A DNA stretch of 37,249 nucleotides from a virus. The notes below the pieces were generated by a model, which worked only from the letters and a program-made list of their open reading frames with translations, ran no database searches and had not been told where the DNA came from. Of this stretch, positions 7,126-36,926 are shown in pieces. The stretch spans positions 1 through 37,249 of IMG/VR virus record IMGVR_UViG_3300047678_000471, one strand, 5' to 3'. The translations under genes and the position numbers were made by a program. How positions within the stretch are numbered: position 1 is the stretch's first letter; each line of letters begins with the position of its first letter.

Positions 7126-7204
7126 AAATTAGATGTAAAAACAAACTATATGTCAACTCCACAATTTTACTTACTTATCTGAAACGACTTTAAATAAAAT
7201 AAAA

Positions 7205-13203: not shown

Positions 13204-13254
13204 TTAAAATAGTTGTATATTTACATATCAGTTCGCCCCACGAAGGCGAGCGCC

Positions 13255-13285
13255 CCCCGGCAGCAATGCCGGGGCTTTTATTTTA
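13255..13285 (+). terminator. Terminator-like hairpin, plus-strand orientation
   Basis: The stem CCCCGGCA/TGCCGGGG (13255-13274) has a GCAA loop and is followed by TTTTATTTTA on the + strand. No + strand gene precedes it. It would stop transcripts running on from the early operon into the oppositely transcribed head genes. On the minus strand it is only a hairpin in the leader of the gpG-like gene. The loop core recurs inverted at 36976-36987. Confidence 0.55.
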
Positions 13286-14645: not shown

Positions 14646-14650
14646 CAGCT

Positions 14651-15955
14651 TTAGTGGGCGCTCCCGAAAAAATCGGTTAATACGTTTTTGATTTCAGCCT
14701 CAAGGCTAAGTTTCTTATCCTCTTTTTTTCCATCAGCCTGCTGCTGTTGCTTTGCCTTTTCATCTTCCATTTTTTGTACCTGTGCATCAAAATCATCGGG
14801 CTTTTTTAAGCCGCTGATTTCATAAATATCATCGGCATCCACGGGCAGGCCCATTAGCTTAACCTGCTGCGCTATGCTTATTTTAGTTTTGGCGGTATCT
14901 AAATCCACAGGATCTTCATTCACAAATTTGCCGCCGGGAGGCAGCAGGCCAATGTTTATAAGCACGGGTAAAATAACCTCATTGAGTATAGCTATTTCTT
15001 TTATTTTGTCGTCCTGCGCAACTTCGTTTACTGTTTTAAAATGCGTTTCGCTTTGTGCATAGCCACTACTCTTGCTGCTTGTGGTACTTTCGGTTGCACC
15101 AAGTATCAACACCATCATTTCTTCGTTCATTGCCTGCCGCAGGGTGTTGTACAAATCATTACTATTGCTGCCACTACTATCTTTATGCATGGTAAACTCT
15201 GCATCCTTTGGCAGCACAGCCCATGCTGCACTTGCCGCTTTTTCCAAAGCCTGCTCCAATTGTATGCGCACCTGCTCGTTGAAGCCATCGTACCTGGCTT
15301 CACGAAATGGCATGCCGAATATTTGTGCATAGTTGGCCCAATCGGCAATATTTCCTCTTTTATAAATAGCATAGCAGGTTGCCTGCAGCAGGTATCCCAA
15401 ATCATCATGCCTGCCTATTTCAACAACTGTGCGGTTGTAAGGTGGCATATCGTACCTTATTCCTTCAATGTCAAATTGATTTTGTATAATTAATTTTTCA
15501 CGTGGTTTTATATGTTTTTTGGGCACATCAAACACATAAAGCTTATCATCCACATTCATTAGTTCCATTACAGTTATGCCCCATGCCTTTTGCAATTGGA
15601 TGCACTCTCTCAAGTATATGAATTGTAAACTATCGATAAGACAACTTGTGCCTTTAATTTCTTTTTTATCATCCTCACCTACATACATAAGTTTGTTTTT
15701 TGTAACACCGAGTACCCTTTTCCTTACTAAACGGTTTAAAAAGGCATCTAAAAGGGCATCATCATACAAGTCATAAAGTGCTTCTCTGGAGCCATTTATA
15801 GCTTCCGCATTTTGGTGTTTATTGCGCCAGTCCTGTATATCGGTTTTGCTGCGCTGTACAGGGCGTATATTAATATTTTGTATTACAATACCACTTTCCT
15901 TTATTTCTCCTGAAACTTTAGTTACACCTGGTTTCACTTGTTTTTTAACTGCCAT
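14651..15955 (-). CDS. Portal protein (DUF935, Mu gp29-like)
   Basis: The portal forms the DNA entry and exit ring at one head vertex. The protein has the DUF935 pattern: DALLDAFLNRLVRKRVLGV, AWGITVMELMNV, YAQIFGMPFREARYDGF, AEFTMHKDS and GATESTTSSKSSGYAQSE. I start it at MAVKKQ (15955), just after the gp36-like stop, rather than at 15982, which would overlap that gene. It is about 434 residues, with a Lys/Gln-rich C-terminus (KAKQQQQADGKKEDKK). It precedes MuF as in Mu. Confidence 0.85.
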   Translation of the reverse strand: MAVKKQVKPGVTKVSGEIKESGIVIQNINIRPVQRSKTDIQDWRNKHQNAEAINGSREALYDLYDDALLDAFLNRLVRKRVLGVTKNKLMYVGEDDKKEIKGTSCLIDSLQFIYLRECIQLQKAWGITVMELMNVDDKLYVFDVPKKHIKPREKLIIQNQFDIEGIRYDMPPYNRTVVEIGRHDDLGYLLQATCYAIYKRGNIADWANYAQIFGMPFREARYDGFNEQVRIQLEQALEKAASAAWAVLPKDAEFTMHKDSSGSNSNDLYNTLRQAMNEEMMVLILGATESTTSSKSSGYAQSETHFKTVNEVAQDDKIKEIAILNEVILPVLINIGLLPPGGKFVNEDPVDLDTAKTKISIAQQVKLMGLPVDADDIYEISGLKKPDDFDAQVQKMEDEKAKQQQQADGKKEDKKLSLEAEIKNVLTDFFGSAH

Positions 15956-15956
15956 T

Positions 15957-16376
15957 TTAAAAGTTGTTTTTTCGTTTTTCAATAGTTCCGTACTTGATAT
16001 AATTGTTTGCCTCTTCGGCCGGGGGCTCCGAAGGGTAAGGCATTGTAGGATTTATTTTACCACTCTGCACCTTGCCCAGCCATTCCAGTGCCTGCTCGTA
16101 CCGGTACTTTCGCAATTCCATCTCCACGCCGGGGTTGGCAAGCTGTATGTAATGCCATACGGCAATGTCTTTTGTGTACAGCAATAATGTAGGGTGGCGT
16201 TCAGTGCCGGTAGCACTGAATATGGCTGTTGTGTCGTAAGCCCTTATATAACCTTCCACTTCGCCGGTAGCAGCAATTATAGCATCCTGTAGTATGCTTT
16301 CATCCTCACGGCTTATTTCGTCCACTATGCCGCCATACAGGTGTGTTTTAATTTCTGATGTTTCTAAAAATGCCAT
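15957..16376 (-). CDS. Mu gp36-like head protein (DUF1320)
   Basis: The 139-aa protein matches DUF1320: the N-terminal FLETSEIKTHLYGG, LQDAIIAATGEVEGYIRAYD and YTKDIAVWHYIQLANPG, then a helical end EQALEWLGKVQSGKINP. It is probably a head-completion/connector protein. In Mu it lies after the capsid gene, but here it sits between terminase and portal, so the order differs. Confidence 0.8.
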   Translation of the reverse strand: MAFLETSEIKTHLYGGIVDEISREDESILQDAIIAATGEVEGYIRAYDTTAIFSATGTERHPTLLLYTKDIAVWHYIQLANPGVEMELRKYRYEQALEWLGKVQSGKINPTMPYPSEPPAEEANNYIKYGTIEKRKNNF

Positions 16377-17873
16377 TTAAAAACGTTTTAAGCTGTGTTT
16401 ACGAAAGCCCATACTTATGGGCGTATCTTCAAAAAAACGGTTATCAATTATTTGTTTTGCACCTTCGCAGGCATCGGGGCCGTCATCATGGCTTTTGCTG
16501 CCTGGTTCAAGCGCTTTGAATTGTTCTTCGAGTATTTGCATGTGATGATTGCTGCGTTCCTCTTCATTCAACCACAGCTTTCCATTTGTATTCAAGGGCT
16601 CCAGTGCACTTTCAATACGTGTGAATTTGTCCGGTTTTTTTCGTTTATCCGGGGCAATCACTATGGTACTTTTCATTGTGGCAAACACATCGTGCAGCTC
16701 TTTTAGAATTATATCCTGTAAAAAGTTTTCTTCAGCATACCAGTATATCGGCGTTTTCCCGTCAACGTAATTTTTTATGTCAATAAGCCCGGCTGCCAAA
16801 TCTCTGGTAGTGCCCTGCTTTAAAAAGCACTTGCGTATATGGTACTCTGTGCCTATTCTGCCCATTAGTACAGCCGCCTTAAAATCGTTGCGGCTGGTAC
16901 TCTTATAGCTTAAATCTATGTAGCATACGAGGAACCTGTATGCCTTTATATGGGGCAGTTTTTTATAATGCATTTCGCTGAATACTGAGCCCTGGCTTAT
17001 AGGGTTATTGAAATACTCCTTTTGTGCACTGATATAACTTATTTTGCTTAGGGTATAATCAATATCCTTTTCGCTGTTTTTTGCAGGCCATGTGCTTTTA
17101 CCTTTATTATCACGGATGTTGATTACGTCAACATAGTCGGCCTTTTTAATAGCTTCTGTTATGCAGCAATACTTTGCGATAATATTGCCGTTAAAGCGTA
17201 TGCGCTTACGACCACTCACGCTTAGCGTTGGTATCAGGGCCTGTTCTATCCATTCCCACTTTTGCCTTACTATTTTTTCATTTCTGCACTCTTCGTCCGT
17301 ATCAATATCATCTATGTCAAGTATATCAGGCCGCATCTCTTCCAGCCGCAAGCCCCGTGGTGATTGACCGGCACCAATGGCAACAAATCCGAAACCAGCT
17401 TTCGATACAAAGTGCCCCGTTTCCCACTGCCCAATTTTCTTTTGCTCGCCATAATCGTTTATTATTCGCTGATTGCTTTCCAGGTTTATCATATACGGCA
17501 TCAGCAATGCAACGGCTTTATCATAGCTGGTGCTTACCTGTATTTTAAACTTAGACCTGCCTGTTAGCATCAGTTTTAAATCTTCCATCATAGCCCGGGT
17601 ACTCTTAGCCAGTTCCCGGCTCCATGCCCTCACTTCGTATATCCGCTCGTTATCCATCCAGCGCCTGGTAGCTGCCCGGTGAAAGGCTGCGCTTTCACAT
17701 TTATAATAGTTAGGGAAGTAGTATTTGAACCAGGCCTCATGGTCTGATTCAAGCATGGCGATACGTTTCTTTTGCTGAACCAGCGTTTCCGCCTGGTCTA
17801 CATAAGTAGAGCGCTCTATCTGCTTTCTAAATTTTTCCCACTGCGCCAGTGCCTGCTTATCCTTCAGCTTCAT
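16377..17873 (-). CDS. Terminase large subunit
   Basis: The 498-aa packaging motor and nuclease has a deviant Walker A WSRELAKST (84-92), Walker B DILDIDDID (183-191), a nuclease-domain strand CYIDLSYK (Asp320) and a C-terminal HDDGPDACEGAK acidic site. The length is usual for the family. It overlaps the small subunit gene by 4 bases and is followed directly by the gp36-like gene. Confidence 0.9.
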   Translation of the reverse strand: MKLKDKQALAQWEKFRKQIERSTYVDQAETLVQQKKRIAMLESDHEAWFKYYFPNYYKCESAAFHRAATRRWMDNERIYEVRAWSRELAKSTRAMMEDLKLMLTGRSKFKIQVSTSYDKAVALLMPYMINLESNQRIINDYGEQKKIGQWETGHFVSKAGFGFVAIGAGQSPRGLRLEEMRPDILDIDDIDTDEECRNEKIVRQKWEWIEQALIPTLSVSGRKRIRFNGNIIAKYCCITEAIKKADYVDVINIRDNKGKSTWPAKNSEKDIDYTLSKISYISAQKEYFNNPISQGSVFSEMHYKKLPHIKAYRFLVCYIDLSYKSTSRNDFKAAVLMGRIGTEYHIRKCFLKQGTTRDLAAGLIDIKNYVDGKTPIYWYAEENFLQDIILKELHDVFATMKSTIVIAPDKRKKPDKFTRIESALEPLNTNGKLWLNEEERSNHHMQILEEQFKALEPGSKSHDDGPDACEGAKQIIDNRFFEDTPISMGFRKHSLKRF

Positions 17874-18322
17874 GCAAATTGATTTAGATAGATGTCAAAC
17901 CATTTCGTTATCTGCTTTGCCAAATCAGGTTCTTCTTTTTGCACCATGTTTATAAACTCAGTACCAACATCCACTTTTTCGGCAATACTTGTTTCAATTT
18001 CAAGGTTTTTTATTGCAGTAGTTAGTTTCAGCACTGCATCAGCTTCTTTGCTATTGATGGGTATTTTCAACTCACTTTTTTCGTCTATCGCATCATTTAT
18101 GTTTTGAAGCATTTTGTAAAGCCTTCGCAATTCGTTACTACGTGTAGTTAGTAATGATGTTTTTAAGTCATCCCATCTTACACCTTTATCATCTGATGTA
18201 TTCACCCAGGTACTAAGTGTGTTTTCGCTGACCCCAACTATGGAAGCAATTTCCTTTTGATTATACTGGCCGGTTAAGTAGAGTGCTTTAGCCTTATCCT
18301 TTTTGTCGTTGCGTTTTGCCAT
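17870..18322 (-). CDS. Terminase small subunit-like protein
   Basis: The 150-aa protein has an N-terminal HTH (AKALYLTGQYNQKEIASIVG, then VSENTLSTWV) and a helical C-terminal part, the layout of DUF1804-type small terminases that recognise phage DNA for packaging. I start it at the ATG at 18322 (MAKRND); a TTG at 18331 would add three residues. The start codon lies within the 20-bp palindrome at 18314-18333. Confidence 0.75.
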   Translation of the reverse strand: MAKRNDKKDKAKALYLTGQYNQKEIASIVGVSENTLSTWVNTSDDKGVRWDDLKTSLLTTRSNELRRLYKMLQNINDAIDEKSELKIPINSKEADAVLKLTTAIKNLEIETSIAEKVDVGTEFINMVQKEEPDLAKQITKWFDIYLNQFA

Positions 18323-18333
18323 ATATGGCAAAA
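18314..18333. promoter_or_regulatory. Perfect 20-bp palindrome between divergent late operons
   Basis: TTTTGCCATATATGGCAAAA is perfectly self-complementary. Both divergent ATG-GCA-AAA starts (minus at 18322, plus at 18325) lie in it, two bases apart. It could be an operator for a late regulator, or simply the result of two identical gene starts (MAK) facing each other. Promoters for the two late operons must lie inside the opposite coding region or overlap this site. Confidence 0.5.
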
Positions 18334-18519
18334 TTGTTTTTTATACAGGGCGGTTTCAATTTTAAAATCAATGATACGGCAGTAGGTGCCGGGGCTTACG
18401 GCAAATGCTGCCGTGTGTCTAAACCTGCATTTGGTAAGGCTTTCAGCCGATTGCATTTTTACGCCATAATCGACAAAGCAAGCGAATGGCCAAACTGGAT
18501 ATTGACATTGTTCTTATAG
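18325..18519 (+). CDS. Small protein at the head of the rightward late operon, 64 aa
   Basis: The frame begins MAKLFFIQGG and contains GAGAYGKCCRVSKPAFGKAF. Its codon use resembles the phage genes. It overlaps the protease gene by 34 bases. The first triplets copy those of the next gene (MAKL). I do not recognise it; it may be a real small late protein or a leader reading frame. Confidence 0.4.
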   Translation: MAKLFFIQGGFNFKINDTAVGAGAYGKCCRVSKPAFGKAFSRLHFYAIIDKASEWPNWILTLFL

Positions 18520-19520
18520 ATGACAGCATAGTGATGCATGGCTTTCGTGTATTAATGAGCGGCGCAATGCTTGAAGGTTTTAAAAGCAATCCAATAATGC
18601 TGCTGCAGCATAACCGACCCAAAGAGTATGCCGGTGCCGATGATATTATGCTGCCGATTGGTAAGTGGTACGATATACGTGTAGAAGGTAACCGCTTGCT
18701 GGCAAAGCCAGAGTTTGACGATGATGACGAGCTGGCTGTTAAAGTGCAGAATAAAGTTCAAAAGGGTTACCTCAATGGCGCAAGCATTTGGATAGAGCCG
18801 TTGAGAATAAGCGAAGAGCCATCCGACATGCTGCCGGGCCAAAGCCTGCCCACATTAACCAAATGGGGCCTGCTGGAGGCAAGCATTGTGGATATACCCA
18901 ATTGCCGCAATGCCTTAGCTATAAGGAATAGTGCCGGAAAAAAAATACTACTGCACGGCGATGGAAGCGAAAATGAAAATGAGTTAAAAGAATACTTAAA
19001 AACTTTTTCAACAAAAAATATATCGATGGAAAAAAAAGTACTGGCCGCTAAGCTTGGCCTTGATGAAAGCGTAGCTGATGCTTTGCTTAGCAAAAAAGTA
19101 GATGAAATAATTGCCAATGCTGCCAAGCTTACTGCATTGCAGGATGAAAATACGCAGCTTAAAGACACTATTGTGCAGATGAAAAACGCTGCTGCTGATA
19201 AGGCGGTTGATGACCTGGTTGAAGCGGGGTTTAATGAAAAAAAATACGGCGCTGAAGAAAAGGAAAGGTATCGTAAGCTGGCCAAGGCCGATTTTGAAAC
19301 TACAAAAGAGCTTATAGATAGCATGAAGCCTTATGAAAGTATTGAAAGCCGGTTGAGCGCTGCCGATAACAATGTAAACCAGGCAAGGCTTACTGAGCTG
19401 AGCAAGCTGAGTGGCGTAGAGCTTTACAATAAGGGCCTGCTGGAAGAGTTGCAAAAACTATCGTTGCCGGTATTTAAAATTAAGTACAAAGAAGCCTTTG
19501 GGGTAGAGTACAATGGCTAA
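18486..19520 (+). CDS. Prohead protease with C-terminal scaffold
   Basis: The 344-aa protein has an S78/HK97-type protease domain in residues 1-150: His42 in LLQHNRP, Ser100 in GYLNGASIW and the strand LLEASIVDIPNCRNA. Residues about 181-300 are helical and charged (coiled-coil-like), typical of scaffolding. An in-frame ATG at 19026 (Met181, MEKKVLAAKLG) follows an A-rich stretch and would yield a separate scaffold of 164 residues, as with Mu I and Z. It lies directly upstream of the capsid gene. Confidence 0.85.
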   Translation: MAKLDIDIVLIDDSIVMHGFRVLMSGAMLEGFKSNPIMLLQHNRPKEYAGADDIMLPIGKWYDIRVEGNRLLAKPEFDDDDELAVKVQNKVQKGYLNGASIWIEPLRISEEPSDMLPGQSLPTLTKWGLLEASIVDIPNCRNALAIRNSAGKKILLHGDGSENENELKEYLKTFSTKNISMEKKVLAAKLGLDESVADALLSKKVDEIIANAAKLTALQDENTQLKDTIVQMKNAAADKAVDDLVEAGFNEKKYGAEEKERYRKLAKADFETTKELIDSMKPYESIESRLSAADNNVNQARLTELSKLSGVELYNKGLLEELQKLSLPVFKIKYKEAFGVEYNG

Positions 19521-19558
19521 TCAAATTATTAAATAAAAAAGATAAAAAAAGTATAACC

Positions 19559-20638
19559 ATGAAACTAATTAAAGCCATTGTTTTTATTGCAGGCATTTTT
19601 TTGCTGGGTGCTCCGGCAGTTGAAGGTATTGTGCAGTTTTCAAAAGAAATTAATGTACATCCATTGGCAGTGGCAGTGCCTTTAATAACAATAGGCATTG
19701 TGCATTCCATTTATAATGATAGGAAAAACGTTATTGTTAATGGCCTTGTGCTTGAAGTATGGGCCAGGTACATCATCGAGCGTTTTTGGAAAGATAATAG
19801 CTTTTTGAAATTTGCCAAAGATGATAGTGATTATGTAACTCAGGGCCGTATAGTACACATACCACAGCCTGGTAGTAAACCTGTGGTGGTAAAAAACAGG
19901 AGCAGTTTTCCGGCTACTGCCGTTCGCCGTACTGATACAGAAGTGTTGTATTCGCTTGACGAATATACAACCGACCCTACCCACATTCCGAATATCGATG
20001 CCATTCATTTGAGTTACAACAAGCAGGATAATGTGCTGGGCGACCATATGAGCACGCTAACTGAAACCGTTGCTGATGATATGATAATTAAATGGGGTGC
20101 CAATGCCACAGTTGTAAAAACAACTGGTGGCGCTATTGGCCCGGTTACAGGACAAACTGGTAACCGCAAAGCTTTTATCGAGGCCGATTTGAAAAACCTG
20201 ATGATAAAAATGAATGTTGACAATGTGCCAAAGCAAAACCGCTACATCATGATTGACGACAATATGTATGGCGCATTTTACGACAGCCTTGGCCAAACCA
20301 ATGCAAAAGACTTTAGCCGCTATGCTGATGCCGAAAACGGTGTTATAGGCAAGCTGCATAGTTTTAGCATCATGACCAGGAGCAGTGTGCTGGCACTAAC
20401 CTCGGCCGATGCTGTAAAAGCGCTTGGCGCATCGCTTGGTGCTACTGATAACCTTGCCTCACTGGCCTGGCACAAGGATAGTGTTGCCTTTGCAATTGGC
20501 GATACTAAGCTTTTCCAAGACCTGAATAACCCCCTCTACTACGGCGATATACACTCACTGCTTTTGATGGCCGGTGGCCGGGTAAGGCGTGGGGATAGTA
20601 AAGGTATATATGCAGTAACGCAGGATGCTGCAGCCTAA
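19559..20638 (+). CDS. Major capsid protein with hydrophobic N-terminal extension
   Basis: The 359-aa protein follows the protease/scaffold gene, as expected for the shell protein. From about residue 58 (IVNGLVLEVWARYIIERFWK) it reads as the coat protein of Bacteroidota Mu-like phages, with QGRIVHIPQPG, YSLDEYTTDPTHIPNID and RVRRGDSKGIYAV. The first 52 residues are unusual: two hydrophobic runs (about 4-20, AIVFIAGIFLLGAPAVEG, and 35-52), resembling a signal/membrane segment. The start cannot be moved: no ATG lies between it and the conserved part. The extension may be cut off by the prohead protease. Confidence 0.8.
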   Translation: MKLIKAIVFIAGIFLLGAPAVEGIVQFSKEINVHPLAVAVPLITIGIVHSIYNDRKNVIVNGLVLEVWARYIIERFWKDNSFLKFAKDDSDYVTQGRIVHIPQPGSKPVVVKNRSSFPATAVRRTDTEVLYSLDEYTTDPTHIPNIDAIHLSYNKQDNVLGDHMSTLTETVADDMIIKWGANATVVKTTGGAIGPVTGQTGNRKAFIEADLKNLMIKMNVDNVPKQNRYIMIDDNMYGAFYDSLGQTNAKDFSRYADAENGVIGKLHSFSIMTRSSVLALTSADAVKALGASLGATDNLASLAWHKDSVAFAIGDTKLFQDLNNPLYYGDIHSLLLMAGGRVRRGDSKGIYAVTQDAAA

Positions 20639-20662
20639 TTTAAAATAACAGCCGCCAACCAC

Positions 20663-20688
20663 TGGAGCCTGGTTAAGGCCGGGCTCCA
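20663..20688 (+). terminator. Hairpin after the capsid gene
   Basis: TGGAGCCTGG and CCGGGCTCCA form a 10-bp stem with one T-G wobble and a 6-base loop (TTAAGG). No U-tract follows, so it may attenuate rather than end transcription, or stabilise the upstream capsid message, between the strongly expressed capsid gene and the lysis genes. Confidence 0.4.
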
Positions 20689-20697
20689 TATATAAAA

Positions 20698-20874
20698 ATG
20701 CAAAGGCAAATTATGATAGACTGGATTGCTGTAAAAATAAACAGCACTGCTATATTCTTAAGCATATTAGGTGCTATAAAGGGCAATCATATTGCTTTAA
20801 GCCTATCAATACTTGCCAGCCTGTACAGCCTTGCATACACACATTATAAGTGGCGAAAACACCGTAAAAAATGA
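20698..20874 (+). CDS. Small membrane protein, holin candidate, 58 aa
   Basis: A short frame encodes two likely membrane segments: STAIFLSILGAIKG (16-29) and ALSLSILASLYSLAY (32-46). It ends in a strongly basic tail (KWRKHRKK). It overlaps the next gene by ATGA and starts the lysis cassette before the u-spanin-like and endolysin genes. Size, basic tail and position suit a holin; which of this and the next protein is the holin is open. Confidence 0.55.
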   Translation: MQRQIMIDWIAVKINSTAIFLSILGAIKGNHIALSLSILASLYSLAYTHYKWRKHRKK

Positions 20875-21101
20875 AACAATTTTTTTCAAGCCTATCTAAA
20901 ACGGATGTACGCAACATCATTGCCATCATCTATGTACTGCTTGTGCTTGGATTTATTTATGTGCTCGTATTTAAACCGGTGCCCAACGAAAACAAAGACC
21001 TTGTAAATGTGCTTGGTGGTGTTGTTATTGGTGGTATCGGCCCCATCATCGGATTTTACTACGGCAGCAGTAAATCAGACAATCATTTGGATAGTAAATG
21101 A
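20871..21101 (+). CDS. Small membrane protein, holin/antiholin candidate, 76 aa
   Basis: Two membrane segments are visible: IIAIIYVLLVLGFIYVLVF (16-34) and VVIGGIGPIIGFYYGSS (51-67). It is coupled by overlap to the upstream membrane protein and the downstream lipoprotein. The GGIGPIIGFYYGSSK end recurs in holin-like phage proteins of Bacteroidota. Together with the previous gene it may form a holin-antiholin pair. Confidence 0.6.
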   Translation: MKQFFSSLSKTDVRNIIAIIYVLLVLGFIYVLVFKPVPNENKDLVNVLGGVVIGGIGPIIGFYYGSSKSDNHLDSK

Positions 21102-21571
21102 AAATTTTAATTATCATACTACTTGTATTCTTTTCATTCAATGCCTGCCGCACTGTACGGCCTGTGCTGCATACCAACCAAAAGGATAGTGTTGTAACCG
21201 TTACTGTTACTGAAAAGGTAACCGTAACAGAATACCTGCCGGGAGATACGGTAGAGCTTTGGCAGGCTATACCATGCCCTGAAGCAGTTGTTGATAGAAC
21301 TGTTAAAAAGGGTAACACCTCGTTATCTGTGCAATTAAAAAATGGCCAGTTAAATGTGCGGTGCAATAGCGATAGCCTGCAACGTATAATTGACAGCATT
21401 AAAACATCTGTTCATAAAGAAGTGTATCGTGAAAAAACAATATCGATACCTATTGATAAACCAGTACCCTACATACCAAAATGGGTGTGGTGGCTGATTG
21501 CAGCTAACACATTCTACTTGTTTTGGCGATTTAGAAAGCCGCTAATTAAACTTTTGAAACCAACTGTATGA
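21098..21571 (+). CDS. Unimolecular spanin-like lipoprotein
   Basis: The 157-aa protein has a lipoprotein signal with Cys17 (VFFSFNAC). A beta-rich middle follows (SVVTVTVTEKVTVTEYL), then a helical region, and a C-terminal membrane segment (KWVWWLIAANTFYLFW, about 128-144) with a basic tail. An outer-membrane lipid anchor at one end and an inner-membrane span at the other is the design of u-spanins such as T1 gp11, which fuse the two membranes in the last step of lysis. It lies between the membrane proteins and the endolysin. Confidence 0.6.
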   Translation: MKILIIILLVFFSFNACRTVRPVLHTNQKDSVVTVTVTEKVTVTEYLPGDTVELWQAIPCPEAVVDRTVKKGNTSLSVQLKNGQLNVRCNSDSLQRIIDSIKTSVHKEVYREKTISIPIDKPVPYIPKWVWWLIAANTFYLFWRFRKPLIKLLKPTV

Positions 21572-22035
21572 CACTTGCCGAAAAAACCTTACAGGTAGCA
21601 ATTAACCAACTTGGAGTTTCGGAAAAGCCGGTTGGTAGTAATGCAGGGCCTGAAGTAAACAATTATTTAAAAAGCGTTGGCCTTCGCCCAGGATATGCCT
21701 GGTGTATGGCTTTTATCTACTGGTGTGTTGAGCAGGCGGCAAAAGAATTGAATGAAATTAACCCGTTGGTTAAAACCGGCGGTGTGCTACGGCAGTGGAA
21801 TGAAGTAAAGCTGCGCAAGCTATCATCGAGGGACAGGGCGATAAAGCCGGGCGACATTTTTATCATGGATTATGGCAAGGGCCTCGGCCACGCCGGTTTT
21901 GTTGAAAGAGTAGGTAACGGTATTATTCATACCATAGAAGGCAATACCAATGAAGGCGGCAGCCGTGAAGGCTATAAAGTAACACGAAGGCAGCGGCTGC
22001 TAACTACTATTAATAAGGGATTTATACAGCTTTAA
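21568..22035 (+). CDS. CHAP-domain endolysin
   Basis: The 155-aa protein shows the CHAP/NlpC-type active site: Cys46 in GYAWCMAFIYWC, His108 in LGHAGFVE and an acidic/polar end of the site at EGNTNEG (124-130). It should cut peptide links in peptidoglycan. It has no signal peptide, so it needs a holin, consistent with the two small membrane proteins just upstream. It overlaps the spanin-like gene by ATGA. Confidence 0.88.
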   Translation: MTLAEKTLQVAINQLGVSEKPVGSNAGPEVNNYLKSVGLRPGYAWCMAFIYWCVEQAAKELNEINPLVKTGGVLRQWNEVKLRKLSSRDRAIKPGDIFIMDYGKGLGHAGFVERVGNGIIHTIEGNTNEGGSREGYKVTRRQRLLTTINKGFIQL

Positions 22036-28894: not shown

Positions 28895-29153
28895 AAGATT
28901 TCAAACGCTTGCTGATTTTGCCTGCCAGCATGGCGGCAATATAGAAAGCCTGCTGAGTGTTGCTGTTTTGAACGGCATATCGCCGACTGCAAATGTGGAG
29001 CCGGGAACAGTGTTGAAACTGCAAGTAATTGATATACGGCAGTCGCAATTTTTTTTAACAAATAAAGCTGTAGATATTACTTCGCAAGGCAGTGATACTA
29101 TACAAGGAGGAATTGGATACATGCAGATTGGAACAAATTTTATAGTTAGTTAA
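28881..29153 (+). CDS. LysM-like tail protein, 90 aa
   Basis: Residues 5-50 follow the LysM layout: FQTLADFACQHGGNIESLL, AVLNGISPTANVEPGTVLKL. In tails, such domains often bridge tube and baseplate parts. I start it at the ATG at 28881 (MAVIKRF). It overlaps the previous gene by 14 bases and meets the J-like gene directly. Confidence 0.65.
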   Translation: MAVIKRFQTLADFACQHGGNIESLLSVAVLNGISPTANVEPGTVLKLQVIDIRQSQFFLTNKAVDITSQGSDTIQGGIGYMQIGTNFIVS

Positions 29154-29998
29154 TGGCGCAATCAATTTCATATTACAAGGAGCTTATAACAAACGAATAT
29201 GTGAACAGGGCGGCTGCTATTGGTATAACTATAAATCCGCAAGCCTGGAGTGCCACTAACCTTGATCGCTGCTTTATACACGCCGTGAGTGTATGCGCCT
29301 GGATGCTTCATAGTTTGTTTGACTTGTTTAAGTCGGATGTGAACGAAACGATAGGTGCCATGAAACCACACAGCCTGCGGTGGTATGCCGAGATGGCAAA
29401 GAAATTTCAATACGGATTTGCATTGCCTGAAGATAGCGATGTATATGATAATACGGGGGTTGATGATGAAGATGTGTTGCAAAGCAAAATAGTGGCTTAT
29501 AGTGCAGTAACCGAACAAATACGAGGGCTTAGAATAAAAGTAGCTAAAGCAGGTGAAATTGATTTGGCGCCGCTTACTAATGATGAATTGGACGCATTTA
29601 CAGCATACATGCGGCGCATAAAAGATGCCGGCGTGAAGCTGAATATTACCAGCCAGGTTGCCGATTCACTAAGGCTTGTTTTGACGGTAGTGTACAATCC
29701 GCTTGTATTGACCGCTACAGGGAGCAGGATTGACGGCATAGCCGCAGCACCGGTAAAAGATGCCATAAGGGCTTACTTAAAAAACCTGCCATTTAACGGC
29801 ATTTTAAGTTTGCAAAAACTGATTGATGAAATTCAAAAAGTTGATGGCGTTGCGGATTTGCATGTAAACAGCGCCAGGGCAAGGTATGGCCTGCTTCCAT
29901 TTAGCAATATAAATATAAAGTATAAGCCCGATAGCGGTTACCTGCGCATTAGCGATGATGACCTTTTGATTAATTATGTAGCTGACAATGACGAATGA
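29153..29998 (+). CDS. Baseplate J-like protein
   Basis: The 281-aa protein has the J-like central pattern: AVTEQIRGLRIKVAKAG, TNDELDAFTAYMRRIKDAGVKLN, DSLRLVLTVVYNPLVL, APVKDAIRAYLKNLPFNG and LIDEIQKVDGVADLHV. These proteins form the wedge ring of contractile-tail baseplates. The position after the wedge-like gene supports this. Confidence 0.75.
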   Translation: MAQSISYYKELITNEYVNRAAAIGITINPQAWSATNLDRCFIHAVSVCAWMLHSLFDLFKSDVNETIGAMKPHSLRWYAEMAKKFQYGFALPEDSDVYDNTGVDDEDVLQSKIVAYSAVTEQIRGLRIKVAKAGEIDLAPLTNDELDAFTAYMRRIKDAGVKLNITSQVADSLRLVLTVVYNPLVLTATGSRIDGIAAAPVKDAIRAYLKNLPFNGILSLQKLIDEIQKVDGVADLHVNSARARYGLLPFSNINIKYKPDSGYLRISDDDLLINYVADNDE

Positions 29999-30482
29999 TG
30001 AAGTATATCGTGTTGATTTTAAAAAGCTGCTTACCTGGCTGATACCATGGCGATTATTGCAGCCACGAGTGCTTAACTGGTTATTTTCATTACTGCTGCC
30101 GTTGCAACAGTTATATACGGCATTTTGGAAATACAGGAGGGCTACTATATATCACTTGCGTATAACACCGCAGGTTTGTTTTTTAGAAAAACTGCTTAAT
30201 GACCGTTATGATTTTACGCAAAGGCGCATATACATTGATGATGGAATGGATAAAAACCCATTGCACATTTTTATTTACGAAGAATTGAAGCCAAAGTTTG
30301 TTTTTAAAAATAATGAAGCGAAACCAAAATACATCTACACGAGTGGTGAAAGTGGATTATTTAAAGATGATTTTGTTGTGAACGTGCCTGCTGGACTGGT
30401 GTACGATGAAAATGAGATGAGCAGCCTTCTTAAAGTATATAAGTTGGCCGGTTCAAAATTTAAAATACAAGTGTACTACTGA
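29988..30482 (+). CDS. Baseplate/tail protein downstream of J (gpI/gp48 position)
   Basis: The 164-aa protein follows the J-like gene with an 11-base overlap, the place of P2 gpI/Mu gp48. It is rich in Trp, Leu and Arg at the N-terminus (LLTWLIPWRLLQPRVLNWLF), then has FLEKLLNDRYDFTQRRIYI and a C-terminal beta part (FKDDFVVNVPAGL). The hydrophobic N-terminus is probably an interface rather than a membrane span, given its prolines and charges. Confidence 0.55.
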   Translation: MTNDEVYRVDFKKLLTWLIPWRLLQPRVLNWLFSLLLPLQQLYTAFWKYRRATIYHLRITPQVCFLEKLLNDRYDFTQRRIYIDDGMDKNPLHIFIYEELKPKFVFKNNEAKPKYIYTSGESGLFKDDFVVNVPAGLVYDENEMSSLLKVYKLAGSKFKIQVYY

Positions 30483-31261
30483 TGCATAAACAGATTGATT
30501 TTTCAAACATTGGCGGTTTTCCGCTTGAGCAGGATACGCTTGCATTTATGCAAGATAGTTATACCACTGCACTTATGCACATAGCCAGGCTATGCGGTGG
30601 CGACAAAATAATACTATGGGGAGTTGAAGTGGAGGATGGCGTTGTTAGCGATGGCGCAATTTCTATTAATAATGAAATTATACCCTTTGCCGGTGGTGCA
30701 GTTGATAATTACATTTCAATTGAAATAACGCAAGGCCCTGCACTTTATGAAGATGGCAATGTAAAATATCCATATACTACAAAGATAGCTACATGTGCTG
30801 CTGTTGGTGATATTGCGATGGCTGAGCTGCAACGGCTGCCAACGCTTATAAATATTTGGCTGCCAGGAGATATAAAGATGAAGTATGTGCCAGAGGAATA
30901 TATTGCTGCCAACTTTGATGCTAATGGTTACGGGCTCAATCGTGAAAAAGGCTGGCGCATATTGAGCAAACAATATCCTGCAACTGCCGGACGGGTATTC
31001 GTACAAAGAGATCCATCTAATCCAAAATTTAATGAAGTTGGTAAAATATTTGGCGCAGAAACACACCCATTGACTGCAGATGAAAACGGCCAGCACGTTC
31101 ACCAAATTAAAGGCAGGCCCAACGGTACGGGTAATGGTTCGGATGCAAGTTTATTAAATAGCGGCACTGCCGCCACATGGGTAACTGAAAGCAGCGGTTT
31201 GGGATTGCCGCATAATAATATACAGCCATCGGTTGCAGTACTTGTTTTAATTAGATTATAA
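30482..31261 (+). CDS. Tail fibre protein with collar-like C-terminus
   Basis: The 259-aa protein has at its C-terminus the tail-collar/fibre tip pattern: GAETHPLTADENGQHVHQIKG, with a metal-binding-type H-x-H, and PHNNIQPSVAVLVLIRL at the very end. The N-terminal part attaches to the baseplate (MHKQIDFSNIGGFPLEQDTL). It should be an adsorption fibre or its base. Confidence 0.75.
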   Translation: MHKQIDFSNIGGFPLEQDTLAFMQDSYTTALMHIARLCGGDKIILWGVEVEDGVVSDGAISINNEIIPFAGGAVDNYISIEITQGPALYEDGNVKYPYTTKIATCAAVGDIAMAELQRLPTLINIWLPGDIKMKYVPEEYIAANFDANGYGLNREKGWRILSKQYPATAGRVFVQRDPSNPKFNEVGKIFGAETHPLTADENGQHVHQIKGRPNGTGNGSDASLLNSGTAATWVTESSGLGLPHNNIQPSVAVLVLIRL

Positions 31262-31704
31262 TGCCAAGCTATAAAGACACATCGAAGCCATGGTTTGAAA
31301 CTGGAGATTATCCAACTCAGTCGCAGTTTTGGCAAACATTCGATCGTATTCGATGGAAGGATGAGCCTATAAGTATGGCTGAAGTTGAAGGGTTGATTGC
31401 ACAGCTTAATGCATTAAGCAGGCCTGATGATGTGGTAGTGTGTGATGGTGGCCCGGTATTGTACACAATACCACCGGGCTATAAACTTGTAAGTATTGAA
31501 ATATGTACACCTGTTGGTGTAGCTGCTTTGCAGGCCAATTTTACTTTTGGAGCAACGGGTGTTATAATACCTGAAATGGAATTAAGCGGCCCTGAGAGCT
31601 TTCCTGTAAACATTCTCGCTGCCTTTTCTGCGAAAGGCCTTTCTATAACTGGATTAAACACGGGAACTAAAGTGTTATTTGAAAAAAGAAAAATAAACAT
31701 TTAA
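31261..31704 (+). CDS. Tail-fibre-associated protein, 147 aa
   Basis: The N-terminus PWFETGDYPTQSQFWQTFDRIRW is a typical baseplate- or fibre-attachment segment in Bacteroidota phages. The rest is a small beta-domain (YTIPPGYKLVSIEICTPVG). It starts on the stop codon of the fibre gene (TAATG). I cannot name it further. Confidence 0.6.
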   Translation: MPSYKDTSKPWFETGDYPTQSQFWQTFDRIRWKDEPISMAEVEGLIAQLNALSRPDDVVVCDGGPVLYTIPPGYKLVSIEICTPVGVAALQANFTFGATGVIIPEMELSGPESFPVNILAAFSAKGLSITGLNTGTKVLFEKRKINI

Positions 31705-31706
31705 GA

Positions 31707-33452
31707 ATGAGTTTAAAGCATATTTTACCGCCACTTTTTATAATGCTAAGTATAGCAGCACATGCGCAAGTGCCGAGTGCTGAAAAAATGATAGTACGAC
31801 AGCAGTTGTACTTAAAGGATACCTGGTTAAGAGGGGTTGCTACTGATACTTTTAGTATGAGTAGTGAAGATAAGGCTATAGTACCAAAAGTAATTGCAGA
31901 TTACATAGCGCCGAGAATGGCTTTTGTTTTGGATAGTATTGAAAAGGTGAAAGACACCGTTAAACTCGGCTATCTTTTAAAAAAATTTACCCACCTGGGC
32001 AGGCCTGGTGTGATGGTGGATAGCGCTAAACTGGATAGCGTGATAAGGAGTATTACGAGCGGTGGCGATAGCTACTGGCAAGCCGATGATTACGGCATAG
32101 CATACAATGGTGAATTGGGGCAAAATGTAAAGATAAAAGCTGCCGAGGGTAGCGGTGATAATGCGATACTCACATTGCAGGCCGATGGTGGCAATGGCAG
32201 TGAAATATACCTGAAAAATAGTACCGGCCAGCAGATGAAGATAGCGAGTTACGATGATTCGCATTTGATTGACCTTAATGCTGGGCCATTAGATTTTAGG
32301 ATAAGCAAGCCGGGAGCTTCGATTAATTACGTTGGGAGGGAATGGCAGACTGTTTTTAGATTTAAAGATAACGGCGAGTTTAAAACTACCACATTGTCTA
32401 CTTCAGCGTTCATTGAAAATACATTTCTTATAGATAGCCTCGGCAAGGTAGGCATACACACATCCACTCCCGACAGCACATTAAGCCTATCCGGCAGCCT
32501 TAAACTGAATATCCCCGGGGCAGGATTAGGCAGGGTGCTTACGGGAACAGATAGCAATGGCGGGGCGGTGTGGGCCGCATCAACAGATACGAGCGGATTC
32601 ATGCACAAATCCTACAATCTTACTGAAACTATTACGGGCAATAAAACATTTACCGGTAGTAACGCTTATGGAACACCTGCGAGCATAACTCTTACCAATG
32701 GTAGCGGCCTGCCTTTAAGCACAGGTGTTACAGGTACACTTGGTGTAACAAACGGCGGCAATGGTCTTGCAACTTCAACTCTTGGGGATATACGCTACGG
32801 TAGTGGTACTAATACGATGGCTGCATTGGCCGGTAATACAAGCACCACGATGGCGGTATTGACACAAACGGGTAATGGCAGTGCAAGTGCTGCACCGGTA
32901 TGGACAAGTACCACCGGCAGCGGAAACGTTGTTAGAGCTACATCTCCAACACTTGTAACGCCAACTCTCGGCGTTGCCTCTGCAACAGGCGTAATAATTA
33001 GCGACAGCCTTAAATTAGATAAAAGTAAAATTTCAATTAATCAATCAATAAAATGGGGATTAATGCTTGATTCGTCCACAAATAAAGTTGAGCGTATGAG
33101 CATAGAGAGTGGTACTTGGACACCAACTGCTACTGCTGTTACGAATATTACAGGAACGCCAACAACATATACCTGCATGTACACAAGAGTTGGTAACATA
33201 GTTACTATATCTGGACGAGTTGATGCCAATAGCACAGCGACAGGTGCTACAGAATTTTCATTGACATTACCAATTGCATCAGACTTCACAACTACTGAAG
33301 ATGCGAGGGGTTGTGCTAATACCCAAAGCTCAACTGCTAATAGAGTTGTGTTTTGGGCTGATGCTACCAACGACAGACTATCTTTTCAATTTAACTCTGC
33401 CGCATCTGGCTCGAGAGAATACAGTTTTTCAGGACAATACATAATAAAATAA
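31707..33452 (+). CDS. Tail-fibre-like protein with signal peptide, 581 aa
   Basis: The N-terminus LKHILPPLFIMLSIAAHAQV is a Sec signal peptide with an AHA-Q cleavage point. The middle is typical fibre sequence: GTLGVTNGGNGLATSTLGD and IRYGSGTNTMAALAGNTS repeats and Thr/Ser/Gly-rich strands, also GNVVRATSPTLVTPTLG. The end, from about residue 485, is a small beta-domain (GTWTPTATAV, MYTRVGNIVTISGRVDANS). A virion fibre with an export signal is odd; the two genes that follow share this. Confidence 0.7.
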   Translation: MSLKHILPPLFIMLSIAAHAQVPSAEKMIVRQQLYLKDTWLRGVATDTFSMSSEDKAIVPKVIADYIAPRMAFVLDSIEKVKDTVKLGYLLKKFTHLGRPGVMVDSAKLDSVIRSITSGGDSYWQADDYGIAYNGELGQNVKIKAAEGSGDNAILTLQADGGNGSEIYLKNSTGQQMKIASYDDSHLIDLNAGPLDFRISKPGASINYVGREWQTVFRFKDNGEFKTTTLSTSAFIENTFLIDSLGKVGIHTSTPDSTLSLSGSLKLNIPGAGLGRVLTGTDSNGGAVWAASTDTSGFMHKSYNLTETITGNKTFTGSNAYGTPASITLTNGSGLPLSTGVTGTLGVTNGGNGLATSTLGDIRYGSGTNTMAALAGNTSTTMAVLTQTGNGSASAAPVWTSTTGSGNVVRATSPTLVTPTLGVASATGVIISDSLKLDKSKISINQSIKWGLMLDSSTNKVERMSIESGTWTPTATAVTNITGTPTTYTCMYTRVGNIVTISGRVDANSTATGATEFSLTLPIASDFTTTEDARGCANTQSSTANRVVFWADATNDRLSFQFNSAASGSREYSFSGQYIIK

Positions 33453-33459
33453 ATAAGCA

Positions 33460-33930
33460 ATGAAATTACTAACTACCATCACCGCCATACTGCTGCTATC
33501 GGCAGCCTCTTTTTCGCAAACGACAATTAAAGTAACTACCAGTTCATCATCCAGCGCAAAGACGGTGTACACCCAGGCAGGCACCGATGCGTTGGTGAAC
33601 AAAGCACAAAGTAATGCTGTAGCCTACACTAACGCACAGGTATTGCCAGTATGGGTATGGATAGCAAAGACGGATAGCATCATCAATGCCCTCAATGCGG
33701 TAACGGTGAAGCAGCAGGCTGATATTGATAACCTTAAATTTCAAAACAGGCAAAAGGATACATTGATTGCAATGATGGCAATTGATTACCGCAGCAGGAT
33801 TGATGCGATACTCCCTGATACAATTATAAATGGCAACGGATTTAAAATTGAAACTGTGGGCCCACGCAAAATGAAGATAACCGCACAGGTTAGTTATGAT
33901 GCTAATGGTAAGCTTGTAAAAAATTATTGA
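33460..33930 (+). CDS. Exported hypothetical protein with coiled-coil, 156 aa
   Basis: It begins KLLTTITAILLLSAASFSQT, a Sec signal peptide. A Ser/Thr-rich segment follows, then a predicted helical part (DSIINALNAVTVKQQADIDNLK) that may form a coiled coil, and a beta-rich end (GNGFKIETVGPRKMKITAQ). It lies 7 bases after the fibre gene and 1 base before the next. I do not recognise it. It may be an adaptor for the beta-helix protein. Confidence 0.6.
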   Translation: MKLLTTITAILLLSAASFSQTTIKVTTSSSSSAKTVYTQAGTDALVNKAQSNAVAYTNAQVLPVWVWIAKTDSIINALNAVTVKQQADIDNLKFQNRQKDTLIAMMAIDYRSRIDAILPDTIINGNGFKIETVGPRKMKITAQVSYDANGKLVKNY

Positions 33931-33931
33931 A

Positions 33932-36019
33932 ATGAAAAAAACAATAGTTACACTTTTTGCCGCTATACTGATGCACCTGTACGCTGCTGCCACAACCTAT
34001 TATGTGAGCAGCAGCGGCAGCGATGCTAATCCTGGAACCATGGCGCAGCCCTGGCTTAGTATATCCAAAGTGAATGCGGTGGCTGCCGCCAATGATATAG
34101 TATTGTTTGAGCGTGGTGGCACCTGGCAGGGCACACTTAGGCCCAAAGCAAATGGCATTACTTACGATGCTTATGGTAGTGGCCCTATGCCGGTAATTAC
34201 CGGATTTGAAACGCTAACAACCTGGACAAATGTTGGCAGCGGCAAGTACAGCAAGTATGTGCCGGGAGTAAAGAGTTATTGCAACATACTACTCATTAAC
34301 GGCAACGTACAACGCATTGCCAGAACGCCAAACACTACACTATGGTACAATAATGGTGGCACCAGTAGCAGCGTAGTGTATAATCTGCTAAGCGGGCAGC
34401 CTTCGTTTGTTGGCGGCGATGTAGTAGCCTGGAAGAATGGCTGGCGTATAGACAGGGGCCGCATTACTGCGCAAACAAGTAATACACTGAGCTATGTGCA
34501 GCAGCGTGGTATAGCCAGCAGCGCCGGTAATCTTGACTTTGTGAGCCAGGATGCCGGTTATGGCTTTTTTGTGCAAAACCACGAGGCTTGCCTTGATGCC
34601 TTCGGTGAGTGGAGGGTTGATAGTGCGGCAAGTACCGTAAGGTTGTATATGGGGGCAGCTAACCCGGTTGATTACAACATACAGGTAAGCGTTGTGGATA
34701 CATTGGTGAATATTGGCAGTCGTACAGGCATTACAGTGAGGTCGCTGAAATTCACAGGCGCTAACGTAGCGGCGATACACGCTATTACCAGCAGTAACGT
34801 GCTGGTGGAGGGTTGTAGCTTTTATGCCAACACAATGGCTACTTACTTTTGGAACACAAGTAATTTGACGATTACTAATAATGACTACAAGCACAGCTTA
34901 TGCCAGGCCATAGCTGTGGCCAACAGGCAGCGCATTAACGTTACCGTTACTAATAATACTGTTGACAGCACGGGATTGCTGGCCGGGCAGGGTGCCTTTG
35001 CATATACTATGCAGTTGAAGGCTATCAGCGTAGAGGTGGACAGCACGGTGGCGGGCCACAATACTGTAATAAGCGGCAATCATGTGAGCAATACCGGTCA
35101 GGCTGGCATTGAGTTCCAGGGCAGCAAGATATTGGTGGAAAAAAACTATGTGTACTGGTATTGCCGGGTTTTGGAAGACAACGGAGGTATATACACCTTT
35201 ACGAGGAATGACGGAACGCCGCCGCAAAAGCGGTTTAGGTATAGAGCCGTTCGTTTTAATATAATAAATCATTGTCCGGGTGCCGACATATCTATTAAAA
35301 ACCCTGAAGAGCCTGATGTAGCGGGCTTGTACCTTGATGATCAGACAGAACAGTTGGAGGCGTATGGTAATACCATAGCTGGCATCAACGGGCCTGGCAT
35401 ACAGCTTAACAACCCTTATTATTTGAGCATTGTTGATAACACAGTTTATGATTGCGATGAAAGCATTTTGGTGCAGGCTAAGAACTACAGCAGCCTTGCC
35501 GGTAATGTGATTAAAAAAAACATCTTTTTTAATACAACTAACCAGCAGACATATTTCAGATATTGGGATTATAACCTGCAATTGCCGACAGCGCAAACAC
35601 TGGCACAGAGCACTGGCAGCTTTGCGCTTGTTGACAGCAATTACATTTACTGCACACGCAGTAGCTGGATTAGGCTCTGGTACTCTGTCAATGGTAGCAG
35701 TACAACTTTCAGCAACCTGGCTTATAACACATGGCGCAGTACCTACGGGCAGGATGCGAACAGCAGCACAGCGCCTGTAGCTGTAACTGGTTATTCGCTG
35801 GTATATAATGCAAGCGATGAGCCTGCAACGGCAGCGTTTCCGGGCCAGCGCAAAATTGATATGAAAGGGAATGTAATGGATAACAGCATGAGCATTGCCC
35901 CTTACAGCAGCGCTATACTCATTAATAACGGCACTGTGCCTGTGCCTCCGGCAGAGCCGCCAGCGCCTGGTGAGCCAGCGCCTGAAGGCTTTATAATAGT
36001 GAACTGGAAACTGGAATAG
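33932..36019 (+). CDS. Exported right-handed beta-helix protein, 695 aa
   Basis: The signal peptide KKTIVTLFAAILMHLYAAAT leads into TYYVSSSGSDANPGTMAQPW, the usual entry of pectate-lyase-like beta-helices (DUF1565 type), and a long series of parallel-beta coils with Asn/Val/Ile ladders (GITVRSLKFTGANVAAIH, NVLVEGCSFYANTMATYF, NLTITNNDY). It ends in a Pro-rich tail (PVPPAEPPAPGEPAPEG). Such proteins bind or cut polysaccharides; in phages they serve as depolymerase spikes. Catalytic residues cannot be fixed by eye. Confidence 0.75.
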   Translation: MKKTIVTLFAAILMHLYAAATTYYVSSSGSDANPGTMAQPWLSISKVNAVAAANDIVLFERGGTWQGTLRPKANGITYDAYGSGPMPVITGFETLTTWTNVGSGKYSKYVPGVKSYCNILLINGNVQRIARTPNTTLWYNNGGTSSSVVYNLLSGQPSFVGGDVVAWKNGWRIDRGRITAQTSNTLSYVQQRGIASSAGNLDFVSQDAGYGFFVQNHEACLDAFGEWRVDSAASTVRLYMGAANPVDYNIQVSVVDTLVNIGSRTGITVRSLKFTGANVAAIHAITSSNVLVEGCSFYANTMATYFWNTSNLTITNNDYKHSLCQAIAVANRQRINVTVTNNTVDSTGLLAGQGAFAYTMQLKAISVEVDSTVAGHNTVISGNHVSNTGQAGIEFQGSKILVEKNYVYWYCRVLEDNGGIYTFTRNDGTPPQKRFRYRAVRFNIINHCPGADISIKNPEEPDVAGLYLDDQTEQLEAYGNTIAGINGPGIQLNNPYYLSIVDNTVYDCDESILVQAKNYSSLAGNVIKKNIFFNTTNQQTYFRYWDYNLQLPTAQTLAQSTGSFALVDSNYIYCTRSSWIRLWYSVNGSSTTFSNLAYNTWRSTYGQDANSSTAPVAVTGYSLVYNASDEPATAAFPGQRKIDMKGNVMDNSMSIAPYSSAILINNGTVPVPPAEPPAPGEPAPEGFIIVNWKLE

Positions 36020-36052
36020 GCTTTTCTCATACGCAGTTGGTTTTAGTAAACG

Positions 36053-36080
36053 GCCCCGGATGTCTATCCGGGGCTTTGTT
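36053..36080 (+). terminator. Late-operon terminator / first helix of methyltransferase leader
   Basis: GCCCCGGAT/ATCCGGGGC form a 9-bp perfect stem with a GTCT loop, followed by TTTGTTT. It ends the tail operon. It is also the first helix of the structured stretch before the methyltransferase gene. Confidence 0.7.
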
Positions 36081-36122: not shown

Positions 36123-36926
36123 ATGCGACCATTAATGAAAACGCCGATTAGCTATTACGGCGGTAAACAAAAGTTAGCACCAGTTATAGTGCCTGTTATA
36201 ACTGCACAGCCCCACACGCTTTATTGTGAGTGCTTTATCGGTGGCGGAGCAGTTTTTTTCGCAAAACCGGAAAGCGAAGTAGAAGTTTTGAACGACACAA
36301 ACAGGGAGTTGATAAATTTTTATTCAGTTGCCAAAAATAGGTTTGTTGAACTTGAAAAGATGATAAGCGTAAGCCTCCATAGCCGCTGGTTGCACCGGGA
36401 TGCTACGGTAGTGTATGAAAGTCCTCATTTGTTTGATGAGGTAAAAAGGGCATGGGCCGTTTGGGTGCTTAGCACTCAAAGTTTTAGTTCAAAGCTCGAT
36501 GGCAACTGGGGTTTTGATATAAAAAAACGGACTACAACAACTAAAATAACGAATAAAAGAAATGACTTTACCGAAGCGATAGCCCAGCGGCTTCAAAACG
36601 TGCAGTTAGACTGTGCTGATGCTTTGTATGTTATAAAGAGCAGGGATAGCGCTGATAGCTTCTTTTATTGCGACCCGCCGTATTACAACAGCGATTGCGG
36701 TCATTATGATGGATATAGCGAGAGTGATTATATGGCCCTGCTTGAAGTGCTGAGCGGTATAAAGGGCAGGTTTCTGTTATCTTCCTATCCATCGACCTTA
36801 TTGGATGGGTATATCAAACAAAATGGCTGGCATAGCCAGTGCTTTGAACAGGGGGTAAGCGTTAATGCGAAGGGTGGTTATCGTAAGCGTAAATGGGAGG
36901 TTTTAACGGCTAATTTTAAGTTTTAG
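36123..36926 (+). CDS. D12-class DNA adenine N6-methyltransferase (Dam-like)
   Basis: The 267-aa enzyme transfers a methyl group from S-adenosylmethionine to adenine in DNA. Visible motifs are SYYGGKQKLAP (10-20), the SAM-binding FIGGGAVFF (38-46) and the catalytic DPPYYNSD (184-191), in the alpha-type order of D12 methylases. No restriction enzyme is beside it, so it is probably a solitary methylase protecting phage DNA or marking regulatory sites. An ATG at 36135 is an alternative start. It is set apart from the tail operon by the terminator at 36053-36080. Confidence 0.9.
   Translation: MRPLMKTPISYYGGKQKLAPVIVPVITAQPHTLYCECFIGGGAVFFAKPESEVEVLNDTNRELINFYSVAKNRFVELEKMISVSLHSRWLHRDATVVYESPHLFDEVKRAWAVWVLSTQSFSSKLDGNWGFDIKKRTTTTKITNKRNDFTEAIAQRLQNVQLDCADALYVIKSRDSADSFFYCDPPYYNSDCGHYDGYSESDYMALLEVLSGIKGRFLLSSYPSTLLDGYIKQNGWHSQCFEQGVSVNAKGGYRKRKWEVLTANFKF

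Follow-up and report, generated by a model that had tools for sequence, protein, structure and literature searches.

Three adjacent tail-end genes of the window, which is the 37,249-base IMG/VR virus record IMGVR_UViG_3300047678_000471, encode a fibre, a coiled-coil-like and a beta-helix protein with N-terminal leaders for Sec export and cleavage by signal peptidase I, an observation confirmed here at the level of sequence. The explanation that we favour, with moderate confidence, is that the proteins are tail fibres and depolymerases which enter the periplasm by export, lose their leaders and attach at lysis to tails built in the cytoplasm. There is good support for credible Sec leaders on tail proteins and for the occurrence of such proteins in virions of other phages. 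The virion location of the window's own proteins is suggested by homology and architecture; we infer that they are exported, cleaved and kept in the periplasm until lysis, and that the fibre contacts the adaptor. The window also encodes a Mu-type transposase (1363-3426; phrog_310, E = 1.9e-35) and an AAA ATPase, and it is related to Bacteroidota phages and prophages, most closely to those of Chitinophagaceae and allied groups. The tail end is arranged as follows.

29153-29998, + strand: baseplate-region protein, used as the anchor for finding relatives (phrog_38413, E = 1.4e-53).
29988-30482, + strand: conserved tail protein of about 160 aa without a signal peptide.
30482-31261, + strand: tail protein without a signal peptide, the C-terminal part of which matches PHROG tail proteins.
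31261-31704, + strand: short tail 'adaptor' without a signal peptide, with an N-terminal domain (K.WFETG.YPTQ.QF) common to fused fibres and a C-terminal beta-sandwich, the proposed docking socket.
31707-33452, + strand: fibre protein, signal peptide with predicted cut AHA-Q, C-terminal domain resembling minor tail proteins.
33460-33930, + strand: coiled-coil-like protein, signal peptide called with cut SFS-Q.
33932-36019, + strand: right-handed beta-helix (glycosidase/lyase-like) protein, predicted cut AAA-T or nearby, assigned from Pfam, Foldseek and a homologue in prophage L194.
36052-36075, + strand: terminator-like hairpin after the beta-helix gene, from a consensus match alone (16 such sites in the region versus 6.2 expected).
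36123-36926, + strand: D12 class adenine methyltransferase, the end of the module here and in several relatives, outside the export question.

The three leader-bearing frames are open, and each uses the first start codon that follows an in-frame stop, with gaps of 2, 7 and 1 nt before the genes at 31707, 33460 and 33932, respectively. Leaders were called with a rule-based caller written for this analysis (not SignalP), which considers n-region charge, h-region hydropathy and the -3/-1 rule. On the window proteins it found n-, h- and c-regions with small residues at -1 and -3, and it returned the same three cuts that the sequence-only reading had proposed. The claim of good signal peptides on all three proteins also held, the observed score being matched by only 1, 27 and 3 of 4000 composition-preserving shuffles of the fibre, coiled-coil and beta-helix proteins, respectively. 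The residue at +1 is Gln in two of the three (31707 and 33460) and Thr in the beta-helix protein, and Cys at +1, as in a lipobox, was called in none of them. Gln at +1 after cleavage is the Bacteroidetes Q-rule (PMC5837995) and would account for this residue in the phage leaders. Elsewhere among the window's 52 gene calls there are one lipobox call and two other signal peptidase I calls, of which 19559-20638 is probably a membrane helix; the other, an early-region gene outside the tail module (11214-11690, 158 aa), has a strong Q-rule leader, LYS-QC. The fibre-type genes lie at the end of the tail operon, adjoining the adaptor, and residues 465-581 of the fibre match a minor tail protein. A leaderless internal restart at Met residue 28 of the fibre was considered from the sequence and was not counted.

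Relatives were collected through the anchor protein, giving 30 genome loci and 30 viral-contig loci (including L002 and L003), among which L045 duplicates L005 and some start codons were mis-chosen (L013 and L014). The window fibre and coiled-coil protein, used as single queries against the viral contigs, found no relatives, whereas the anchor did, and tblastn of the window adaptor, the beta-helix protein and the L035 fibre against phage records gave no matches. A survey of homologues for leader conservation, which the sequence-only reading had suggested, showed that leaders recur downstream of the adaptor: 44 of the 61 called genes there, which include a few small membrane proteins, have Gln at +1, compared with 3 of 744 upstream control genes (56 of these having a leader call of any kind), the caller's preference for Gln being equal in the two sets. 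Gln at +1 is also the sole invariant column among 18 chosen fibre N-termini. Judged from these calls, leaders on tail-end genes are above chance across the relatives and form a recurrent architecture.

The closest tail end, that of prophage L194, consists of a 148 aa adaptor, four leader-bearing genes (441 aa, SFS-Q; 77 aa, ATA-Q; 109 aa, ASA-Q; and a 696 aa beta-helix protein) and then the same D12 methyltransferase. Its beta-helix protein occupies the same position as that of the window and is 62% identical over the full length, while no L194 protein convincingly resembles the coiled-coil protein. The two fibres are alike in the leader and the first ~140 residues (36% identity, E = 8e-22) and have different bodies, so the leader plus N-terminal module is the conserved part. 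Likewise, conservation among the fibre paralogues of L011 is highest in the part that follows the leader (0.51 identity versus 0.17-0.42 further on); this is less clear in the paralogues of L008 and L010, and there is little contrast in L007. L011 is a Chitinophaga prophage in which eight consecutive leader-bearing fibre genes stand behind one adaptor (12862-20836), the last being cut by the locus end. In L005 an esterase-like gene with a leader (14673-15677; PHB depolymerase family, weak) lies among the tail fibres, and Winogradskyella phage Peternella_1 (L065) has a gene for a 121 aa protein, gene 56 (7072-7437), which lies immediately before the tail-tip genes and bears the Q-rule leader ASA-QK. 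A small exported 'helper' common to split and fused loci was proposed and found no support, as the small proteins of L004 and L041 matched themselves alone.

Evidence for leader-bearing proteins in virions comes from isolated Cellulophaga phages, the tail ends of which are arranged much as here. Consecutive tail-end genes of phi10:1 (gp091-gp094), phi19:1 (gp101-gp104) and phi18:3 (gp085-gp087) have a leader call in 11 of 11 cases, with Gln at +1 in 10, and all 11 products are annotated in GenBank as structural on the basis of experimental tandem mass spectrometry (MS/MS), annotations that are said to derive from a Cellulophaga phage paper of 2013. The pectate lyase gp095 of phi10:1 has a leader and no MS/MS note. 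Residues 1-118 or 1-131 of phi10:1 gp093 are 83-96% identical to phi18:3 gp086 and Nekkels_1 gene 54, the bodies of which differ, and residues ~119-774 are 50% identical to phi4:1 gp052 and 44% identical to phi14:2 gp097, which are MS/MS-noted tail proteins without a leader. The first 42 residues of gp094, comprising the leader and about 22 further residues, recur at 88-93% identity on other bodies, one of which is a pectate lyase.

A comparable exchange is seen within the tail modules of the window's wider kin. In one tail module, L199 (Sphingobacteriales set) combines a fused, leaderless adaptor-fibre of 673 aa with three fibres that bear leaders (473, 378 and 559 aa), and residues 29-102 of the 473 aa fibre are 56% identical (E = 2e-23) to residues 47-131 of the fused protein of L156, from another genome; the same shaft therefore stands behind a leader in one and behind an adaptor in the other. 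In the set used for this shaft comparison, several signal-peptide labels fall on the ~155 aa tail protein and are false calls. The sister phages L042 (split, with leader) and L039 (fused) have a common fibre segment, their branch being well supported, and the S74 fibre chaperone occurs in leader-bearing fibres of L038 and L041 and in the fused fibre of L016. Several near-identical adaptor copies, with fused and leader-bearing fibres side by side, occupy 7611-19001 of L199, an arrangement that may allow fibres to be switched as cassettes. Among the three options in the sequence-only reading, addition to virions after lysis is the best supported, by the MS/MS-noted leader proteins in Cellulophaga virions and by the same bodies and shafts on tail proteins that are not exported; we infer the post-lysis timing.

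Gene order after the anchor is nearly constant: a ~160 aa protein, a ~270 aa protein and then the adaptor, the conserved N-terminal domain of which has invariant M1, F12 and P18 in an alignment of 20 sequences. Two states are found, either a short adaptor with separate leader-bearing fibre gene(s) or a long adaptor that forms one protein with the fibre. Among 56 Mu-like loci with a complete adaptor, a leader follows 22 short adaptors and no long one, and is absent behind 4 short and 30 long adaptors. On the tree of the anchor protein, leader state needs seven changes, of which at least three are forced by well supported branches, so that the split and fused states have switched more than once. 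A wider set of 135 distinct adaptors, from which 18 open-ended ones were dropped, gave 31 short adaptors with a leader, 16 short without, one long with and 68 long without (Fisher p = 2.7e-15, kinship ignored), together with one further short adaptor without a next gene; these counts wrongly take the L040 adaptor as long, take L084 as leaderless though its next gene reads ...CFS-QT, and include among the long adaptors some whose neighbours resemble contractile injection systems. The adaptor domain also occurs in ~260 aa proteins of L100, L165-L172 and L181, followed by genes resembling baseplate parts of such systems.

Matches to the adaptor profile were found in four genome sets: Chitinophagaceae (40 of 394 genomes), Bacteroidales around L022 (25 of 295), Flavobacteriales around L019 (45 of 296) and Sphingobacteriales around L033 (20 of 250), the last three names being assigned from the centre loci. 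Among the loci fetched, short adaptors are followed by leaders in the Chitinophagaceae set, at two Bacteroidales loci and at three Sphingobacteriales loci; no leader was seen in those of the Flavobacteriales set, where the script left many matches unresolved. One leader-bearing gene in the genome survey stands behind a 374 aa adaptor.

With regard to destination, the C-terminal sorting domain of the type IX secretion system (T9SS; TIGR04183) was found in none of 46 leader-bearing phage proteins, a chosen subset of about 60 such proteins plus five of phi10:1, with the window included; several of these proteins have matches in PHROG families for tail fibres, minor tail proteins or virion proteins. 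Together with the lack of a lipobox in the three window proteins, this makes the periplasm the likely place of the exported tail proteins before lysis. The suggestion in the sequence-only reading that the proteins act at the cell surface before lysis is weakened to this extent, the periplasm being likelier, and the option itself still stands. As for docking, the C-terminal half of the short window adaptor is a predicted beta-sandwich (whole model mean predicted local distance difference test, pLDDT, 73) with generic beta-sandwich matches alone (Foldseek, none at E <= 0.001; best Z 8.6), so the fold is no proof of docking. With each member and its near kin held out in turn, a docking-domain profile built from leader-class adaptors recovers 25 of the 31, and the C-terminal domain would bind the fibre.

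In the mechanism that we propose, the distal tail components, namely the fibre, its small coiled-coil partner and the depolymerase-like beta-helix spike, would be made as Sec preproteins, while the cytoplasm would build the tail up to the short adaptor. The fibre proteins would cross the inner membrane, where signal peptidase I would remove the leader, usually exposing a Gln that the host would cyclise, and the mature proteins would fold and wait in the periplasm. Lysis would then mix the compartments, allowing the conserved N-terminal module of the fibre to dock on the C-terminal domain of the adaptor.

Several observations weigh against this mechanism. Its basis is sequences and GenBank notes; the notes are silent on leader cutting, and a co-purifying periplasmic protein could explain the MS/MS detection. 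Virion proteomics for the window's own lineage was not found, and the MS/MS-noted proteins in the examined parts of phi13:1 and phi40:1 have no Q-rule leader call, so leader-bearing tails are not universal. The next gene lacks a leader behind 4 of 26 short adaptors in the Mu-like set, and the link between adaptor length and leader is not significant when kinship is controlled (2.8 of 5 pairs agree and 0 disagree; median p = 0.25). Finally, the held-out docking profile misses L022, L042, L110, L154, L155 and L159; splits that arose independently may therefore have different docking domains. Leaderless fused L178 scored 1.6e-8 with this profile in one split.

It is unlikely that the exported proteins are effectors and not virion parts, with the fibre-like and polysaccharide-degrading proteins acting in the periplasm or in the surroundings after lysis by masking receptors, shielding progeny from debris or trimming host polysaccharide. 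The leaders themselves would fit such a role, as would the enzyme-like members of the exported set (the beta-helix protein and the esterase-like gene of L005), the secreted host relatives of the beta-helix protein and five Q-rule genes of Porphyromonas phages that the authors take as possible host-surface modifiers (PMC10367356). The MS/MS notes nevertheless put such proteins in the virions of three phages, their shafts and bodies match virion fibres, and several split phages have no other long fibre gene in the tail-end module examined.

The resemblance of the beta-helix protein to secreted host proteins can be described more closely. The protein matches Pfam PF13229 (E = 6.4e-15), and its model (mean pLDDT 67) has 3vst as the best Foldseek match (E = 5e-13); the predicted fold is a right-handed beta-helix, and a depolymerase-like activity is predicted from this resemblance. 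Homologues occur in 24 of 244 Chitinophagaceae genomes (E <= 1e-10), mostly at about 30-36% identity. All four host stretches fetched have a leader call, at the same end as in the window protein, and the two long ones, L196 and L198, both have a C-terminal T9SS sorting domain, which the phage copies lack. The suggestion that the three proteins were taken from secreted host proteins is therefore supported for the beta-helix protein by these leader-bearing homologues, and leaves the fibres unexplained.

It is more doubtful still that the leader is kept uncleaved, its hydrophobic N-terminus tethering the fibre to the inner membrane or packing into the tail tip: cleavage in these phages is predicted from sequence and leader-bearing proteins are noted in virions, but the c-regions suit signal peptidase I and the invariant Gln at +1 would be needless for a membrane tether. 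Least probable is chance capture, in which secreted host proteins were the source of the fibre genes and their leaders persist as unselected leftovers, since, despite the host relatives of the beta-helix protein, the leader form is kept across loci whose fibres have little else alike, the leader plus 20-110 aa moves as a unit between phage families in Cellulophaga phages, and leaders are absent where the fibre is fused to the adaptor.

Export followed by docking at lysis would depart from known systems. By the textbook account tailed phages assemble in the cytoplasm, and virion proteins with signal peptides are known from filamentous phages, as coat preproteins (M13 pIII and pVIII); those coats insert in the inner membrane, where the virions are extruded, whereas the tailed virion here would be built in the cytoplasm. 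The present fibres resemble ordinary tail fibres and tailspikes (S74-chaperoned or pectate-lyase-like) in that they come last in the tail module and join a modular N-terminal attachment part to a variable body, with S74 in two leader-bearing fibres and homologous bodies in phi4:1 and phi14:2, but differ in bearing a Sec leader and in being separate from the cytoplasmic adaptor. The window has a lysis-like cassette well before the tail genes (20871-22035), comprising small membrane proteins, an outer-spanin-like lipobox lipoprotein (21098-21571) and a possible endolysin gene (21568-22035). No description of leaders on phage tail proteins or fibres was found in the open-access literature. In the available parts of the papers concerned, the Q-rule genes of Porphyromonas gingivalis phages (Nixviridae) have leaders of the Bacteroidetes type, as here, with function unassigned by the authors and no tie to tail fibres seen (PMC10367356), leaders are mentioned in general terms for two rumen Bacteroides phages (PMC5723332), and the term 'signal peptide' was not found in PMC8776804 or PMC13288928.

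In conclusion, we put forward tentatively that several families of Bacteroidota tailed phages use cross-compartment assembly, in which tails with bare sockets are made in the cytoplasm, Sec-exported and cleaved fibres or spikes are stored in the periplasm, the two meet at lysis, and the leader plus N-terminal plug is an exchangeable cassette, so that one adaptor could accept several fibres (eight in L011). For annotators, a tail gene with a signal peptide in a Bacteroidota phage would be no error. If this is true, receptor-binding proteins would fold in another compartment and join the virion at lysis alone, and virions with mixed fibres or decorated across phages could form from a shared periplasmic pool. 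This would explain several fibres on one phage and the natural swapping of receptor-binding modules, and would expose a dependency of these phages on host secretion.

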